DNA from: an uncultured Pelagibacteraceae bacterium
GTDB lineage: Bacteria; Pseudomonadota; Alphaproteobacteria; Pelagibacterales; Pelagibacteraceae
Direction: 5' to 3'
DNA length: 64,000 nt
Assembly: GCA_902615435.1 (NCBI GenBank)
Contig: CACMOZ010000004.1
Location: 1 to 64,000, forward strand
Shown here one piece after another: positions 2,117 to 7,850 of this stretch; the stretch's first letter is position 1, and every line of letters begins with the position of its first letter. Below the pieces are notes generated by a model that was not told where the DNA came from, searched no databases, and worked only from the letters and a program-made list of their open reading frames with translations. The position numbers were made by a program, and so were the translations under genes.

Positions 2117-2958
2117 TCTCTAAGAGAACCATTTTTAAATTTAGTGTTATAAATATTGAATCCATTCAATCTTAAAACTTCAGCTCCTTGAATAACGTGT
2201 TGGATAACTTCATTATTACCTCTTAACTTTTTTTCAAAAAATTTTTTTTTATCTAAAGTTTTCATTAAATTCATATAAATTTCATAACCTTCCACAAATA
2301 GTTTTTTGTCATTAATTGCCGCGCCCCACATGATAAATGAAGTTGCTCTAGCGAATTTTGTATCGATTGTAAAATATTTAGTATCGTCTCCAGAAATTGA
2401 TTTATATCTTCCAGCATCTTTGTTCTTAATTCTTGCATCAGCTAAATAAGAATTTTTCTTTAAGTCTTCAACGTAAATATTCAGTTGATTAATTTCTTCT
2501 TTATTTAATTTGTTTTTATTTCTCAAATACGAAGTAGAATACGCTAAAGATTTTATTAATATATTTGTCACAAATGAAGGTGATGACCCCCCTTTTTCAG
2601 TCCAATCAACTTTTTTAAAACTATTTGATATAGAGAGATCAACCAATCTTTTTTTAAATATCCCATCTTCTTTTTCAGAACTGTAACCAGCTAGGGCGTT
2701 ATTTAGGTAAGCGGTATTATCCTCTATAAAAGTAGACGCTCCATCTATTGCCAACGGTTCCTCATAACCTTGGATGAAATCTGAAAAATTTTTGTTTAGT
2801 GTTAATGCGCCTCTCCCTGCATATCTACAGCTTTCTTCATTAACTTTTGATAAATCTAAAAGTTTTAAATCTTTTGTAATTTCAATGCTATGTGAAGGAA
2901 TATGTAAAAATAATAATAACGTAAAATTTATTATTATCAATTTTAAAAGTTTTTTCAT
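2002..2958 (-). CDS. Alginate-lyase-like secreted protein, C-terminus removed by inversion
   Basis: The predicted product has 318 residues: a signal peptide (about 1-24, cut near SHS), then a helical region with RGNNEVIQHVIQGAEVLRLNGF and NIYNTKFKNGSLRDQL. This resembles the alpha/alpha-toroid of alginate lyases (PF05426-type), where an Arg-Gly helix, 'A-LRL-G-dlY' and a trailing G-L segment recur. Up to KTR (base 2018) it is native; the last residues RAPS are read from inverted DNA. The true end, GYGAHVAWIPFYL onward, is at 1330-1507. It overlaps the oppositely oriented 1676-2116 frame by 115 bases, itself a sign of rearrangement. Substrate unknown; family call moderate. Confidence 0.6.
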   Translation of the reverse strand: MKKLLKLIIINFTLLLFLHIPSHSIEITKDLKLLDLSKVNEESCRYAGRGALTLNKNFSDFIQGYEEPLAIDGASTFIEDNTAYLNNALAGYSSEKEDGIFKKRLVDLSISNSFKKVDWTEKGGSSPSFVTNILIKSLAYSTSYLRNKNKLNKEEINQLNIYVEDLKKNSYLADARIKNKDAGRYKSISGDDTKYFTIDTKFARATSFIMWGAAINDKKLFVEGYEIYMNLMKTLDKKKFFEKKLRGNNEVIQHVIQGAEVLRLNGFNIYNTKFKNGSLRDQLETHAKRLIKNNNKEIAGLDPDAGKTSIVKTRRAPS

Positions 2959-2996
2959 TAAATTATCTTACCAAATTTTCCCTCTCTGTCTTCTAG

Positions 2997-3014
2997 TTAT
3001 CTTCTAGTCTGCAC
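2997..3014 (-). repeat. 18-bp repeat, copy 2 (leader of alginate-lyase-like gene)
   Basis: On the minus strand this reads GTGCAGACTAGAAGATAA, identical to 1611-1628, and ends 38 bases before the ATG at 2958. It is directly followed by a second ACTAGAAGA, giving two tandem 9-mers two bases apart. With copy 1 it forms an 18-bp inverted repeat around the present arrangement, or a direct repeat in the re-inverted one. Confidence 0.75.
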
Positions 3015-3080
3015 AAATTAATTTGCCTTGATTTCTAATGCTAATTGAAAGGTTAAATAATAAAATAAGGATTGATAATT

Positions 3081-3110
3081 TTTTGAGACTACCTGAGACT
3101 GTCTGAGACT
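3081..3110 (+). repeat. Three tandem 10-bp units, NNNTGAGACT
   Basis: TTTTGAGACT, ACCTGAGACT and GTCTGAGACT follow each other without a gap. The helical-turn period of 10 bases and the position next to a truncated tRNA suggest arm-type protein binding sites of an integration system, but a chance microrepeat is possible. Confidence 0.6.
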
Positions 3111-3125
3111 CTAATCTTACTGTAT

Positions 3126-3172
3126 CCTTGGAGTTTTAAGTCCTTTGTGTCTACCAATTTCACCACGAGGGC
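3126..3172 (-). pseudogene. tRNA-Leu(UAA) remnant, 5' half only
   Basis: On the minus strand from 3172 the sequence gives a 7-nt acceptor strand GCCCTCG, TG, a D-arm GTG...TTGGTAGA...CAC and an anticodon loop CTTAAAA (3134-3140), anticodon UAA. Past the loop the expected complementary stem is missing (CTCC in place of TCC), and no variable arm, T-arm (GGTTCGA type) or CGAGGGC acceptor partner follows. It is therefore a 39-47-nt remnant ending in the anticodon loop, a common crossover point for tyrosine integrases. Confidence 0.6.
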
Positions 3173-3254
3173 ACGTCGTTATTTATAATGTTTAGTTATT
3201 ATATTAATACACAAGGATTTTAAAGATGTAAAAAAAATTATATCACTTCGAGGC

Positions 3255-4142
3255 TTAAAACTCTGTTTCCGAATATAATAAATCAAATTGGTAGTTTTTT
3301 GGAGTTCTTTTCAAATAAATTGTTTTATTTATAATCTTAGATAAATTAGATTTTTTTAAAATAGATTTTGATTTATTTATGTAAAATTCTCCACAAAAAT
3401 GAACCTTAAAATATTTTTGAATAAGCGTGTAAAAAATAAATATGTTTTTTTTCAAGAAACTTGTGTTTGAGCAATAGATTATATTTAAAGTTTTAAAGAA
3501 GCGTTTTTTCTTTGTTACATCGCCTATAATTAGGCAATTTTTTTTAGAAATTGAGTTAAAGAAAATAAATTTTTTAAATCTAGAATTATTATAATCTTTT
3601 ATAATTTTTTGCTGAGATTTGTTTGTTTTTTTCATTAAAAAATTTTGATTATGTAGAATATCAAAGCTTAGTTTAATGTTTTTTGCAAAAAATTTTTTGA
3701 TAAAAATAATTTTGTACTTCATATTGAATTTTTTGAACCCTAACTTTAGAAAAGTTTTTTCCAGTCTAGGTAGTGAGCTTAAAACTGTTATAATACAATT
3801 TTGTTTAATTTGATTTATAAGCATTGAAGAACCAATACGATGGTTTGTATCAACCATCCATGAATGAATATTGCAATTTAAAAATTTTTTTTTATTATAT
3901 TTTTTCTGGGAAAAAATTGTTCCAACAAATCCGACTATTTTTTTTTCATACAATAAGACATTACAAATTGGATATTTTTTATTAATAAAATTATTAAAAA
4001 GAAATAATACTTTTGGGTAATTAAGATTGGTTTGTTTTTTTAGATATTTAAGCGTTTGGATATATAAACGACCATTGTTAAAAACTTTTGCAACTTTATA
4101 ATTTTTTAACCAAGATTTATGAGTTTTTTTTGATCCATGCAT
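3255..4142 (-). CDS. GNAT-like putative N-acyltransferase
   Basis: The product has 295 residues and is very rich in Lys, Asn and Phe. Residues about 55-140 show a GNAT-like course: a strand with LLYEKKIVGFVG, a strand ending in HSWMVDTNHR followed by IGSSMLINQI (the position of the acyl-CoA loop and helix), and FLKLGFKKF, the usual 'G-F' strand near the domain end. The C-terminal half is not recognised and could be a second degenerate acyltransferase-like domain. The start overlaps the stop of the acyl carrier protein gene by one base, so the two are translationally coupled. An acyl-ACP donor is therefore a reasonable inference; the acceptor is unknown. Fold call moderate. Confidence 0.5.
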   Translation of the reverse strand: MHGSKKTHKSWLKNYKVAKVFNNGRLYIQTLKYLKKQTNLNYPKVLFLFNNFINKKYPICNVLLYEKKIVGFVGTIFSQKKYNKKKFLNCNIHSWMVDTNHRIGSSMLINQIKQNCIITVLSSLPRLEKTFLKLGFKKFNMKYKIIFIKKFFAKNIKLSFDILHNQNFLMKKTNKSQQKIIKDYNNSRFKKFIFFNSISKKNCLIIGDVTKKKRFFKTLNIIYCSNTSFLKKNIFIFYTLIQKYFKVHFCGEFYINKSKSILKKSNLSKIINKTIYLKRTPKNYQFDLLYSETEF

Positions 4143-4393
4143 TAAACAATTAAAGATTTTTTCTTCAATGCGGAAATAAGTTTTCTAACGCTTTTAATTT
4201 CAGCAATATTTTTTACTTTGCCAATTTTTCCATTAAGTTTTTTGTCAATCGCGCTAATTATATCTAATTGAGCTAAAGAATCCCAACTATCCATTTTTTC
4301 ATAATTATCAATTTTTTCAATTTCTTTTGGACTTATTTTAAGAATTTTAGAAATTATTTTTATTATTTCTTCTTTGGAAATTTTATTTTTCAT
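4142..4393 (-). CDS. Dedicated acyl carrier protein
   Basis: The product has 83 residues and the phosphopantetheine attachment motif D38-S39-L40 within MDSWDSLAQLDI, preceded by a helix with the KISPKEIEKI pattern of ACPs. It is not the fatty-acid ACP: the pI looks high because of the Lys-rich tail, and the MDSWDSLAQ context is that of specialised ACPs in surface or secondary-metabolite clusters. It lies between a KAS III/methyltransferase pair and a GNAT-like protein, spaced by 6 bases and by a 1-base overlap, and probably carries the acyl group made or used by those enzymes. Confidence 0.85.
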   Translation of the reverse strand: MKNKISKEEIIKIISKILKISPKEIEKIDNYEKMDSWDSLAQLDIISAIDKKLNGKIGKVKNIAEIKSVRKLISALKKKSLIV

Positions 4394-4399
4394 CGGTAG

Positions 4400-5071
4400 T
4401 TAATACGCAATATATATCTCAGAAGAATACAAAATCAAACCATATTTTGTTTTATAACTTATTATTCCTTTCTTTTTTAAATTTTCAAGGAGTTTTCTTT
4501 TTGTATACATGCTTCTAGGTAATGGCCAATCTTTTGAGATCAAAAGTTTTACATTTTTAAAATATTTCCTAGCTGTTTGAAGAATTTTTTTTTTATTTGA
4601 TAAAGTAACGATCGGAAAAATTAATTTCCCATTCTTCTTTAAATATTTTTTTGTTACTTTTAAGACATCATTAACTAATTCGGTTCCGTCTTCTCCACAA
4701 TCACAAGGTATTCCGTTTTTATACCAGGGAGATGCTTTAGCTACTTTTTTAGCTATGGCTGAAATAGACTCAATGATTAAATCAAATTTTTCACCTTCCC
4801 AAGGTTCAAACATTGTCCCAGCTTTTGCGAAAATCTTTATTTTATTCTTTTTTGCGTTTCTTTTGCATAATGAGATTGCTTGTGTTGAAATATCTGAAAA
4901 AAAATATTTATTTTTAAATTTTGTTTTTTTAGCTACCGACAAACCTACATAACCAGTGCCACAACCTAAGTCTAAAATATCTGAATTTTTCTTCAAAGTT
5001 TTCAATGTGCTTTCTACTAGTAGATTTGTCGTAGCGTTTGGAGTAAAAACTTTTTTTTCAACTTTAATCAT
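4400..5071 (-). CDS. Class I SAM-dependent methyltransferase (PrmC/HemK-like fold)
   Basis: The product has 223 residues. Motif I is LDLGCGTGYVG (about 33-43); motif II has FFSDIS; the motif IV region is FDLIIESIS, where PrmC enzymes have NPPY, so glutamine methylation of release factors is not expected. FTPNATTNLLVE near the start resembles the 'rP-teeLv' entry of the PrmC/small-molecule branch. A CDCGEDG segment lies mid-protein. It is co-transcribed with KAS III (3 bases) and ACP (6 bases), so a role on the product or carrier-bound intermediate of this cluster is inferred. Substrate unknown. Confidence 0.7.
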   Translation of the reverse strand: MIKVEKKVFTPNATTNLLVESTLKTLKKNSDILDLGCGTGYVGLSVAKKTKFKNKYFFSDISTQAISLCKRNAKKNKIKIFAKAGTMFEPWEGEKFDLIIESISAIAKKVAKASPWYKNGIPCDCGEDGTELVNDVLKVTKKYLKKNGKLIFPIVTLSNKKKILQTARKYFKNVKLLISKDWPLPRSMYTKRKLLENLKKKGIISYKTKYGLILYSSEIYIAY

Positions 5072-5074
5072 AAA

Positions 5075-6022
5075 TTATAAAATTTTGTTCCACTTTATTA
5101 ATGCGGATCCCCAGGATAAACCCACACCATATCCGGCGATGATTATTTTATTATTATTAGATATTTTCTTTTTAGTACATGCATCTTTTAATGCAATAGG
5201 TATTGAGGCTGAAATTGTATTACCAACTTTACCATAATTCTCAAAAGTCTTATCCTTTTCTAGAGAAAGTCTTCTGTTGATATTATCTAAAATATATTTA
5301 CTAGCTTGGTGAAATATAAATTTATCTATCTTATTTCTATTAATTTTAATTTTCTTTAATAAAGCTTCTACATTGTTTGGGACAACATCCATAGCAAAAG
5401 TTAAAACTTTTGCTCCATTCATCACAATTTCATTCGTCTCAGATGATAATAATAAAGCATCAGCTCCAGAACCATCTGCTCCTAATTCAAATGGACCAAT
5501 ATAATTTTTTTTACTTTTTGAAATCAATGTTGCTGCTGCTGCATCAGAAAAAATAGGTCTACAAGCTGTATTCGTTTTGCTTATGTGTTTTGTGTAAGTA
5601 TCAGCACAAACTATAATTCCATTGTTCACTTCTTTCGATTCAATTAAACTAGATGCCATTCTTAGGGCGTAAACAAATCCTGAACAACCTAAATTAATAT
5701 CAAATGCTATTATATCCTTTCTTAAATTTAATCTATTTTGAATTATACAGGCTGAGGTTGGAATTCTAAAATTCGAAGTTTGAGATACTAAAATTACAAA
5801 ATCAATTTTATTTTTTGGAAATTTTTTAAGAATCTTATTTATTGCTTTAATGCTTATATCTATGACAGTTTCTTTATCATTAGAAATATAACGATTATTG
5901 ATCCCTGTTTTAGCTTTAATTCTATCTATATTTACACTGGGATTATTTTTTTTAAAGATTTTATTATTCTCTACATTTTGAGGAAGAAAATACTCAATTG
6001 CTAATATTTTTGAACCTTGCAT
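5075..6022 (-). CDS. 3-oxoacyl-ACP synthase III-like protein (FabH superfamily)
   Basis: The product has 315 residues, normal for KAS III. The catalytic triad is complete: C113 in INLGCSGFVYAL, H238 in FIFHQASKY and N268 in YGKVGNTISAS. KTGINNRYIS near residue 38 and the glycine-rich end AGYGVGLSWGSALIKW are also diagnostic. Such enzymes start acyl chains from acyl-CoA and malonyl-ACP, or transfer acyl groups to non-thiol acceptors. Its place in an operon with a private ACP, a methyltransferase and a GNAT-like protein, next to a deacetylase, suggests a special acyl group for a surface sugar or small metabolite rather than membrane lipid synthesis. Confidence 0.85.
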   Translation of the reverse strand: MQGSKILAIEYFLPQNVENNKIFKKNNPSVNIDRIKAKTGINNRYISNDKETVIDISIKAINKILKKFPKNKIDFVILVSQTSNFRIPTSACIIQNRLNLRKDIIAFDINLGCSGFVYALRMASSLIESKEVNNGIIVCADTYTKHISKTNTACRPIFSDAAAATLISKSKKNYIGPFELGADGSGADALLLSSETNEIVMNGAKVLTFAMDVVPNNVEALLKKIKINRNKIDKFIFHQASKYILDNINRRLSLEKDKTFENYGKVGNTISASIPIALKDACTKKKISNNNKIIIAGYGVGLSWGSALIKWNKIL

Positions 6023-6029
6023 AGATAAT

Positions 6030-6770
6030 TTAAAATTTTCTCACAACTTTTAATACTTTTTCACTTATAAATCTGGTTAGTTTAGAAAATACTCCGTTAC
6101 TTGAGGCATTGAGCGCATCATCAAAACTAATAATTTTTTTTTTATTTTTGAGAATAAATTTTTGGAATTTTATAAAATTATTTTCATTCATATAATTAAG
6201 ATGCACTTGTGTACTTTGAATTCCAAAGGGTAACATTATTTCTTTATAAAATAGTTGCGGAACAAATTGAATATCGTATTCAGTATAAGGAAAAAAACCA
6301 TAACCATCTATTATGTTATTTAATTTATTTATTTTTAAAGCCTTAAATGTATTTAAATCATAAGTATGGTTTGGAGCAAAAAAAGATCTTATTTTTACTC
6401 CCTCTGACTGAAATATTTTTAGTCCGTTTGAAATTTTATTTATTTGATCTTCTAAAGAATGCCCAAAAAATTCAGATTTTCCTCCGTACCCGAAAAAATC
6501 TTTTTTATTTGTTTCAGTATCATAAACATGAGTAAAACCATGCATTGCAATTTCCCAACCTTTACTTTGCCAATTTCTTACTTGTTGCCAAAAATTATCT
6601 TTTTCTTCGTAACTTAAAAATTCTCGATCTTTATTATTGGGTATTACTCCTAATAAAGGTTTGATATTATATTCATCAAAAAGTGCTTCGCTTTTCTTCA
6701 TAAGTTTCCAGTTCATGTGGCTGGAAATATCATCAATTCTTATAAGTAAACCAGTATTTATTTTTTCCAT
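6030..6770 (-). CDS. Polysaccharide deacetylase-like protein (DUF2334 type)
   Basis: The product has 246 residues without a signal peptide, so cytoplasmic action is likely. The NodB-like metal motifs are visible: R11-I-D-D14, H77-G-F-T-H81 and FFAPNHTYD (130-138), which are the Asp and His positions binding the metal in this family. It is the first gene of the minus-strand cluster, 7 bases before the KAS III gene. An amine freed by N-deacetylation would be a natural acceptor for the GNAT-like acyltransferase downstream; that link is inference. The start ATG follows an AT-rich 126-base divergent spacer. Confidence 0.7.
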   Translation of the reverse strand: MEKINTGLLIRIDDISSHMNWKLMKKSEALFDEYNIKPLLGVIPNNKDREFLSYEEKDNFWQQVRNWQSKGWEIAMHGFTHVYDTETNKKDFFGYGGKSEFFGHSLEDQINKISNGLKIFQSEGVKIRSFFAPNHTYDLNTFKALKINKLNNIIDGYGFFPYTEYDIQFVPQLFYKEIMLPFGIQSTQVHLNYMNENNFIKFQKFILKNKKKIISFDDALNASSNGVFSKLTRFISEKVLKVVRKF

Positions 6771-6896: not shown

Positions 6897-7850
6897 ATGG
6901 ATAGAATATTAATTTATAATTCTGGTGGTGGATTAGGCGACTCTATTCAAATAATCCCATTAATATTGAGTCTAAAAAATCATTTTAAAAAATCAAAAAT
7001 TTTATATTTAGGAGCTCATCCCAACCACTTTGAAGGAAGGCTTAAAGAGTATAATATAAAAGTAGAATCATTAAAATTAAATTTAAAATATTTTGGTTTT
7101 AGATGGTGGCACTTCTTTTTCGTTAGAAGAAATTTTAAAAGAAAAAATTATCTAAAATTTGATTTAATCATCGATCTTCAGTCTAAATTAAGAAATTCTT
7201 TAATTCTTAAAAGGATTCCACATAATAATTTTTATTCAACTACTCTATTCAATATTTTTTCAACGAAAAAAATTAGATTTAAATCTAAGGATCATCTAGA
7301 AAATTTAAGTAATTTTTTAAATGACAAAATTAAAAAGATAAATTTCGATTGTAGTAAATTACCAAAAAATTTATTGAATGAAGCAAAAAAATTGCTTCCA
7401 AAAAATAATTATATAGGTTTTTCAATTACGCAAGGTAATGAATATAGAAAAAAAAGTTGGTCAATCTATAAATTTATCTCACTTGCAAATAAATCTTTAA
7501 TTAAAGATAAGGTTCCAGTATTTTTTATTGAAAAAAATCAAGAACACATTATTGAAAAAATTAAAAGTCAAGTACCGTCTGCTATTTTTCCAGAGACAGT
7601 TTCTGAATTATCATGCCCTGCTCTTGTTACTGCTCTTTCTTCAAGATTAGATCAAGCTGTCTCGATTGATAATGGCGTGATGCATATGATGGGTCTAGCT
7701 AATATTCCTATGATAGTTTTGTTTGGTCCAACTAATTCTGAAAAATTTGCACCAAAAAATAATTTTACAAAAATTTTGGATAGTAAAAAAATTTCAAAAA
7801 CTAAAGATATTGAGACTATTACTGTAGAAGAAGTTTATAATTTAATTTAA
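6897..7850 (+). CDS. Glycosyltransferase family 9 (heptosyltransferase-like)
   Basis: The product has 317 residues. The N-terminus ILIYNSGGGLGDSIQIIPLI is the GT9 signature, where one Gly-Asp pair binds the acceptor side. The C-terminal half has IDNGVMHMMGLANIPMIVLFGPT, the nucleotide-sugar site typical of LPS heptosyltransferases. It transfers an NDP-sugar to a lipid-linked or LPS-core acceptor at the inner face of the membrane; the sugar is not known. Its stop codon shares TTAA with the convergent CinA-like gene. A second GT9 lies at 51590-52522. Confidence 0.85.
   Translation: MDRILIYNSGGGLGDSIQIIPLILSLKNHFKKSKILYLGAHPNHFEGRLKEYNIKVESLKLNLKYFGFRWWHFFFVRRNFKRKNYLKFDLIIDLQSKLRNSLILKRIPHNNFYSTTLFNIFSTKKIRFKSKDHLENLSNFLNDKIKKINFDCSKLPKNLLNEAKKLLPKNNYIGFSITQGNEYRKKSWSIYKFISLANKSLIKDKVPVFFIEKNQEHIIEKIKSQVPSAIFPETVSELSCPALVTALSSRLDQAVSIDNGVMHMMGLANIPMIVLFGPTNSEKFAPKNNFTKILDSKKISKTKDIETITVEEVYNLI

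Follow-up and report, generated by a model that had tools for sequence, protein, structure and literature searches.

A five-gene cassette of an uncultured Pelagibacteraceae bacterium as a candidate module for deacetylation and reacylation of an amino sugar

Organization and proposed function of the cassette

What product could call for a deacetylase, a ketoacyl synthase, a methyltransferase, an acyl carrier protein and an acyltransferase-like protein, all encoded by adjoining genes? This question is raised by contig CACMOZ010000004.1 (GenBank assembly GCA_902615435.1) of an uncultured Pelagibacteraceae bacterium, the genome of which is 1.04 Mb and 86.75% complete. The first 64,000 nucleotides of the contig, which were analysed as one stretch, are referred to here as the window. 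At positions 3255–6770, the minus strand carries five genes arranged head to tail, with gaps of 7, 3, 6 and -1 bases; this cluster had been described in an initial annotation made from the sequence alone, and its coordinates, strand and gaps were all confirmed. In order of transcription, the genes are as follows.

6030–6770, minus strand: deacetylase of the DUF2334/CE4 fold (DAC), 246 amino acids; identified by Pfam DUF2334, an AlphaFold2 model and RxDD and HxxxH motifs; basic amphipathic C-terminal helix
5075–6022, minus strand: beta-ketoacyl-acyl carrier protein synthase III (KAS III), 315 amino acids; Pfam PF08541/PF08545; C113-H238-N268
4400–5071, minus strand: class I S-adenosylmethionine (SAM) methyltransferase (MT), related to PrmC/HemK without NPPY, 223 amino acids; Pfam
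4142–4393, minus strand: private acyl carrier protein (ACP), 83 amino acids; S39 in a DSL motif; PP-binding match below the cut-off
3255–4142, minus strand: putative tandem-GNAT N-acyltransferase, 295 amino acids; identified by AlphaFold2, Foldseek, VIA-align and fused relatives

On balance, we modestly favour the reading that the cassette is a module that first deacetylates and then reacylates an amino sugar of the N-acetylglucosamine (GlcNAc) type, most likely one carried by a membrane lipid or by a surface glycan linked to a lipid. In the first step, the DAC would strip the N-acetyl group, as suggested by its predicted fold, by its motifs and, for the substrate, by the characterised relative GpgD. 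KAS III would then join a starter to malonyl-ACP, with the private ACP as carrier, to give a 3-oxoacyl-ACP, probably acetoacetyl-ACP, and the MT may methylate this acyl-ACP, perhaps at C2 or at the enol oxygen, a placement suggested by the company that the MT keeps. Finally, the tandem GNAT, whose fold is predicted and whose donor is suggested by fused relatives, would move the acyl group from the ACP to the freed amine. The initial annotation had outlined the same route of a freed amine, an acyl group on a private ACP and a transfer, and the exchange of partner genes and the fused relatives described below lend it support.

Distribution was surveyed in 197 genomes of the family, with E-value thresholds of 1e-3 for KAS III, 0.01 for the GNAT, 1e-3 for the DAC and 1e-20 for the MT; these proteins were found in 14, 18, 36 and 8 genomes, respectively. 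All five genes occurred in the same order in four genomes, namely that of the window (G000), G147, G094 and G150, and its recurrence in the last three shows that the order is not due to chance. The DAC was present in 13 of the 18 genomes with the GNAT family, compared with 36 of 197 overall (Fisher test, P = 1.5e-7, kinship ignored). Protein identity among the window and loci L038 and L039 (the fourth locus, L040, was left out) was 79–87% for ACP, MT and KAS III, 52–55% for the GNAT and 65–69% for the DAC. Among these three loci, dN was well below dS in the 14 of 15 pairs for which dS was estimable, which is a qualitative result as dS was near or at saturation. KAS III of genome G082 is truncated by the contig end. 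On the 25-kb contig C12 of genome G068 (L041/L042), a set of four of the genes is found twice, as an inverted copy, which is perhaps an assembly artefact.

The deacetylase

The window DAC matched Pfam DUF2334 (PF10096) with 145.5 bits (E 2e-42, cut-off 26). Its AlphaFold2 model (pLDDT 88.0, pTM 0.88) was aligned best by VIA-align with the polysaccharide deacetylase 3rxz (Z 17.4, 197 aligned residues, 3.1 Å), and model residues 5–245 also aligned with ArnD, 8t0j (Z 16.1, 205 aligned residues, 3.1 Å). ArnD acts on a lipid-linked sugar. The RxDD and HxxxH metal motifs were present in the window DAC and in 33 of 35 homologues, the other two having been called from an internal start. By family profile, metal motifs and structural model, the window DAC is a protein of the predicted CE4/polysaccharide deacetylase fold.

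The C-terminal stretch of all 36 DACs had a net charge of +2 to +7 and a hydrophobic moment of 0.40–0.77, values that are somewhat inflated by being the best of 11 registers. This suggests a basic amphipathic helix consistent with membrane contact and with a lipid-linked substrate. The window DAC scored 35.1 bits (E 9e-9) against the GlcNAc-phosphatidylglycerol deacetylase model NF053788, below its cut-off of 280; GpgD deacetylates GlcNAc-phosphatidylglycerol, a glycolipid (PMC12713373). A PDB sequence search gave no relative of the DAC at E 1, and no paper joining DUF2334 with a deacetylase was found in the open-licence PMC literature.

The tandem GNAT and its probable donor

No match for the 295-amino-acid protein was found in Pfam at E 0.1, nor any in NCBIfam or PADLOC. 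Its AlphaFold2 model (pLDDT 86.9, pTM 0.83) matched in Foldseek the GNAT 2ozg best (5e-11), followed by N-myristoyltransferases and Eis2. The best VIA-align match was the glucosamine N-acetyltransferase region of 4zm6 (Z 13.6, 263 aligned residues, 4.8 Å); the glucosamine N-acetyltransferase of C. acetobutylicum, 5kf1 (Z 12.8, 257 aligned residues, 5.2 Å), and N-myristoyltransferases were tied within 1 of the best. These matches span residues 9–294. The model of this protein, which the initial annotation had called GNAT-like, is a confident one and shows a tandem GNAT similar to glucosamine N-acetyltransferases and to N-myristoyltransferases. A PDB sequence search with the GNAT alignment yielded no more than two GNAT chains, both weak matches (E 0.013), and open-licence PMC searches on GNAT, ACP and glucosamine gave nothing on the family of this protein by title among the matches listed.

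When genome contigs were scanned with the GNAT alignment, 20 loci were identified, ten of them in Pelagibacterales. In six of the other ten (L133, L135, L136, L137, L140 and L141), the GNAT forms the C-terminal part of a protein of 1015–1064 amino acids, the hosts being Rhodopila, three Methylobacterium, Enterovirga and a Hyphomicrobiales metagenome-assembled genome (MAG), all Alphaproteobacteria. All six fused proteins exceeded the cut-off of TIGR01217 (acetoacetate--CoA ligase; 557–615 bits, cut-off 520.9) and five exceeded that of NF002937; two of the Methylobacterium proteins had identical scores and are thus not independent. Pfam analysis of three fused proteins placed AMP-binding and PP-binding domains ahead of the GNAT in each. 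Because all six fused relatives place the GNAT after a domain of the acetoacetate-CoA-ligase type, the donor of the cassette GNAT is probably acetoacetyl-ACP, the product that KAS III chemistry forms from acetyl-CoA and malonyl-ACP. Two free-standing relatives, in L131 and L139, follow proteins with an FkbH domain, a family that loads ACPs. Open reading frames of 81 and 85 amino acids that precede GNAT relatives in L132 and L138 were considered as ACPs and rejected, being unlike ACPs.

If the cassette is as proposed, it would define an ACP-dependent tandem GNAT family, in which the fusions of acetoacetate ligase, carrier and GNAT predict the donor chemistry. Beyond SAR11, this points to a possible role of a so far unnamed protein family that ranges from Methylobacterium to a Bacteroidota MAG.

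The initial annotation had offered two candidate products, an acylated amino sugar of the cell surface and a small acyl-amide metabolite, of which the former is favoured here. A diffusible acyl amide that acts as a signal or metabolite, made after the DAC unmasks a soluble amine, would also fit a dedicated ACP, a KAS III and an N-acyltransferase. We regard such a product as improbable: the substrate of GpgD, the characterised relative, is a glycolipid (PMC12713373), all 36 DACs carry the basic amphipathic end helix, the GNAT model resembles glucosamine acyltransferases, and glycosyltransferases (by gene cluster) lie within 4 kb in 12 of the 36 DAC loci, the window included.

KAS III and the acyl carrier protein

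Both Pfam domains of the window KAS III scored above their cut-offs (ACP_syn_III, 72.9 bits; ACP_syn_III_C, 90.9 bits). Its triad C113, H238 and N268 aligned with C112, H244 and N274 of E. coli FabH and is intact, which bears out the complete triad reported in the initial annotation; S39 of the ACP, also reported there, lies in a DSL motif. The protein scored below the NCBIfam FabH cut-offs (215.6 vs 292.1 bits for TIGR00747 and 242.7 vs 249 bits for NF006829). The PP-binding match of the ACP (18.8 bits, E 0.002) was below the cut-off of 20.8; ACP homologues of 83 amino acids occupy the same position in L038–L041 (2e-38 to 1e-26).

It is conceivable that this KAS III is the lineage's housekeeping FabH with incidental neighbours, as it is the sole KAS III above the Pfam cut-off in its 86.75% complete genome. 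This is very improbable, because 183 of the 197 family genomes, among them 71 of the 77 with a completeness of 90% or more, have no KAS III match, so that the greater part of the family seems to do without this enzyme; moreover, its scores are below the FabH cut-offs, and KAS III keeps company with an MT, an ACP and an acyltransferase. Open-licence PMC searches for SAR11 and fabH gave nothing relevant by title.

A constant deacetylase with apparently exchangeable acyl modules

Examination of the DAC plus ACYLTRANSFERASE showed that a GNAT of one of four families lies within 4 kb of the DAC in 30 of the 36 loci. Homologues of the cassette genes occur together; the initial annotation had named scattered homologues, or another fold of the GNAT-like protein, as evidence against its proposal, and neither was observed. 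The partner was of the window type in 11 loci, whereas it belonged in the others to the gene clusters of GNAT-type acyltransferases c3 (14 loci), c62 (3) and c100 (2). The GNAT family calls for these three clusters are from Pfam runs on representatives, that for c100 being weak and below the GNAT cut-off. A search for c3 in 175 genomes gave 14 matches, 13 beside a DAC and one that is itself a contig-end fragment.

Three of the c3 loci (L103, L111 and L112) add an AMP ligase and an acyl-CoA dehydrogenase (Pfam was run on L103), and together with the GNAT these form an apparent further acyl donor module beside the DAC. In both c100 loci (L114 and L115), a small ACP-like gene lies between or beside the GNAT-like gene and the DAC, one being under the PP-binding cut-off and the other called from the DSL motif alone; L115 also has an amidotransferase of the asparagine synthase (Asn-synthase) type. 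Since differing GNATs and donor modules adjoin the DAC, the DAC is the constant part and the acyl machinery the variable one. Seen across related genomes, this swapping of partners resembles a combinatorial system for decorating the SAR11 surface with acyl groups.

A wider hypothesis, which is tentative and which we would not yet prefer, is a SAR11 "acyl code", in which a constant deacetylase of lipid- or glycan-linked GlcNAc is served by acyl modules swapped by recombination at hotspots. The modules would be KASIII-MT-ACP-GNAT, GNAT alone, AMP-ligase/acyl-CoA dehydrogenase/GNAT, Asn-synthase/ACP/GNAT and GT2/GNAT, and the outcome would be lineage-specific N-acylated surface glucosamine, convergent with the Nod-type product but in a pelagic cell. 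If this were true, N-acylated surface glucosamine would be a plausible recognition target for phages or grazers. A compact, exchangeable deacetylate-and-reacylate kit would be a concrete source of surface diversity in streamlined cells.

Role of the methyltransferase

The window MT had class I methyltransferase domains above the Pfam cut-off among 16 Pfam matches, and it was the only one of the five proteins to be matched by PADLOC (mad2 and type II methyltransferase). Its sequence, METHYLTRANSFERASE, is PrmC-like, but in the alignment ESISAI stands where E. coli PrmC has SNPPYI, and the score of 85.7 bits is below the curated PrmC/HemK cut-off of 199.1. The NPPY motif is tied to methylation of a planar amide nitrogen; because it is replaced here, the MT is unlikely to methylate such a nitrogen.

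All eight family genomes with the MT also have KAS III (Fisher test, P = 6e-11, kinship ignored), and the MT accompanies KAS III across differing kinds of acyltransferase, with or without a DAC. It is absent from 26 of the 30 GNAT-bearing DAC loci, including seven of the 11 with the window-type GNAT. Because the MT tracks with KAS III and not with the DAC-GNAT loci, it probably acts on the acyl-ACP, tailoring the acyl group. At E 1e-20, the single match in 385 class genomes was the window's own, and at 1e-15 three matches were found in 398 phylum genomes, the window's own and two at 1e-16. In 247 order genomes, 69 matches were obtained at 1e-15, of which the top six had E-values of 3e-46 or better and the remainder, at 2e-21 or weaker, are read as PrmC-type. 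"MT" labels in L105 and L108 were disregarded as weak matches (5e-4 and 8e-4) of another gene cluster.

Related sets elsewhere include those of G105 and G025, in which MT, ACP and KAS III are joined by a short-chain dehydrogenase/reductase (SDR) and by other acyltransferases (AAC3-like and hexapeptide types across the two genomes); G180 has the gene order of G105, and G162 has KAS III, SDR and ACP without the MT. In G605, from another family of the order (L189, 3148–6552), an MT and an SDR, the latter called by profile, are divergent from an ACP, a KAS III and a weakly PseH-like GNAT (35.3 bits against the PseH model, cut-off 93.1), with NeuB nearby. Recurring sets of this kind are as one would expect if they formed a general donor module serving the N-acylation of sugars.

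The same sets bear on the main rival explanation, a route similar to that of the Pseudomonas viosamine island, in which the MT would O-methylate the sugar itself and the set would make a methylated, N-acylated nucleotide or surface sugar, deacetylation replacing the aminotransferase step. The island (vioA, M, T, S, B, R and acp) uses a KAS III, an ACP, a methyltransferase and an N-acyltransferase for a 3-oxo- or 3-hydroxybutyryl amide on an amino sugar, and deletion of vioM in P. syringae strips the methyl group from the modified viosamine (PMC3927599). Compared by parts list, these four kinds of protein are found together in the cassette too, and elsewhere in the order MT-ACP-KASIII sets lie near SDR, NeuB, GT2 and hexapeptide or AAC3-like acyltransferases. 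The island differs in that its amine comes from transamination, not from deacetylation as proposed here, and in that the cassette acyltransferase is a tandem GNAT. The five-gene set has neither a reductase (vioR) nor an aminotransferase (vioA), and no 3-oxoacyl reductase or aminotransferase was found among the five genes and three neighbours scanned with Pfam, the scan being confined to these; an SDR does occur in the related sets of G105, G025, G162 and G605. The pattern of MT occurrence, with KAS III in 8 of 8 genomes across acyltransferases but missing from 26 of 30 DAC-GNAT loci, makes the donor a better candidate for its substrate than the sugar, and we consider the viosamine-like route unlikely, though it is the alternative to be taken most seriously.

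Comparison with other known systems

The statement in the initial annotation that no described pathway has exactly these five parts is literally fair, but a closely similar set of functional parts is found in the Nod genes and in the viosamine island. In the nodB, nodA, nodF, nodE and nodS system, a deacetylase frees the amine of glucosamine (GlcN), an N-acyltransferase uses an acyl-ACP, a dedicated ACP and a ketoacyl synthase supply a special acyl group, and a SAM methyltransferase is present (PMC5080398). A Nod-type parts list of deacetylase, ACP, ketoacyl synthase, N-acyltransferase and methyltransferase was found together in the four five-gene genomes. The cassette differs in having a KAS III in place of a KAS I type enzyme and DUF2334 in place of NodB; no NodC-like gene is among the five, and the acyl group is probably short. 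Judged by the Pfam family names of NodA and NodS, the tandem GNAT has no NodA family match, and the NodS family is not among the 16 Pfam matches of the MT.

LpxC and LpxD, which are housekeeping and not accessory enzymes, likewise deacetylate a GlcNAc and then N-acylate it from an acyl-ACP, although their protein families and the position are different. The gpgSDF genes for GlcN-phosphatidylglycerol synthesis in P. aeruginosa resemble the cassette in that a related deacetylase lays bare the amine of a GlcNAc borne by a membrane lipid, with a glycosyltransferase nearby, but that pathway stops at the free amine and the operon has no acyl-swap genes (PMC12713373). By analogy, the best reading is that the cassette would work like NodB/NodA/NodF/NodE or LpxC/LpxD with other protein families. 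Open-licence PMC searches on SAR11 lipopolysaccharide and the hypervariable region gave nothing on the cassette by title among the matches listed, and searches on Pelagibacter with deacetylase, acyltransferase, island or glycosyltransferase gave nothing relevant by title among the matches listed.

Several observations weigh against the proposed deacetylation and reacylation. By alignment, the window KAS III has substitutions at the positions of FabH W32, R151 and F87, the CoA contacts (W32 and R151) and the acyl pocket (F87) of the E. coli enzyme; because these positions are replaced and the scores are below the FabH cut-offs, the starter may not be acetyl-CoA. The window ACP is below the Pfam cut-off and the GNAT is without a Pfam match. 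The DAC is missing from the four-gene set of G068, and from the rest of that 78% complete genome. Four of the 14 KAS III genomes (G003, G140, G162 and G184) have a distant KAS III alone, without the MT, and in G120 (L046) a divergent GNAT, a 72-amino-acid protein with the DSL motif and KAS III stand in a row without the MT, the DAC being on another contig. Five of the 18 GNAT-family genomes have no DAC, three of the five hits being weak and with stops. In six of the 36 DAC loci (L098, L102, L108, L109, L113 and L120), no member of the four GNAT families lies within 4 kb of the DAC; in L098, a window-type GNAT lies about 4.6 kb from the DAC. Among the matches listed, no DAC-profile match was found within about 5 kb of those GNAT relatives that are fused or linked to FkbH, and their acceptor may therefore differ. 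Finally, no glycosyltransferase is constant beside the cassette.

Chromosomal sites and apparent mobility of the cassette

The five-gene cassettes occupy three chromosomal sites, yet their DACs (window, L038, L039 and L040) form one clade (SH-aLRT 95 in a quick tree without bootstrap), which suggests that the five genes move together. The site of L039 and L040 is between fabA-fabB-fabI and pnp. The fabI-pnp site is occupied in L051, L052, L054 and L056 by GNAT-DAC and in L116–L119 by a DAC with another GNAT; the DACs of these eight loci form one clade (99) with mixed partners, and L113, the eleventh locus at this site and one without a recognised GNAT, stands apart on the DAC tree. Over that tree, the partner label needs 11 changes, with the five rows that lack a partner set aside, and the site label needs two, over the 23 rows to which a site is assigned.

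The window cassette has the following element at its side.

3130–3237, minus strand: duplicated 5' half of tRNA-Leu(UAA) and its upstream sequence, 91% identical over 109 bases to the copy on contig C21

This half copy is located 17 bases past the last stop codon of the cassette, matches the C21 copy exactly over 51 bases and diverges at the anticodon loop. ARAGORN identified the intact tRNA-Leu on contig C21 of the same genome and no tRNA in the window; an Rfam search of window positions 2900–3300 gave nothing, despite the presence of the tRNA half. The end of the L038 cassette is 379 bases away from a tRNA-Ser gene, and no tRNA gene was found in the stretch examined beside the cassette in L039 and L040, which limits the link with tRNA to two of the four five-gene loci. 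These observations suggest integration of the cassette at tRNA genes, with the tRNA-Leu half as a possible integration scar.

Carriage by phages was considered and rejected: viral contigs gave no relative with the GNAT alignment, and the MT alignment gave at least 15 weak relatives, with at most 39% identity over short stretches among the matches listed.

Neighbouring genes

The initial annotation had also drawn meaning from the adjacent glycosyltransferase gene.

6897–7850, plus strand: GT9-family glycosyltransferase (PF01075, 45.1 bits), a divergent neighbour whose membership of the system is unsupported by conservation

This part of the annotation did not hold. The other three loci with all five genes have no GT9 beside them, a comparison with the genes called in 45 other loci gave no match to it, and it was dropped as a member of the system. 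On the other side of the cassette, the minus strand at 2002–2958 encodes a protein of 318 amino acids with a signal-like start, which had no Pfam match and a best NCBIfam match of E 0.039, below the cut-off.

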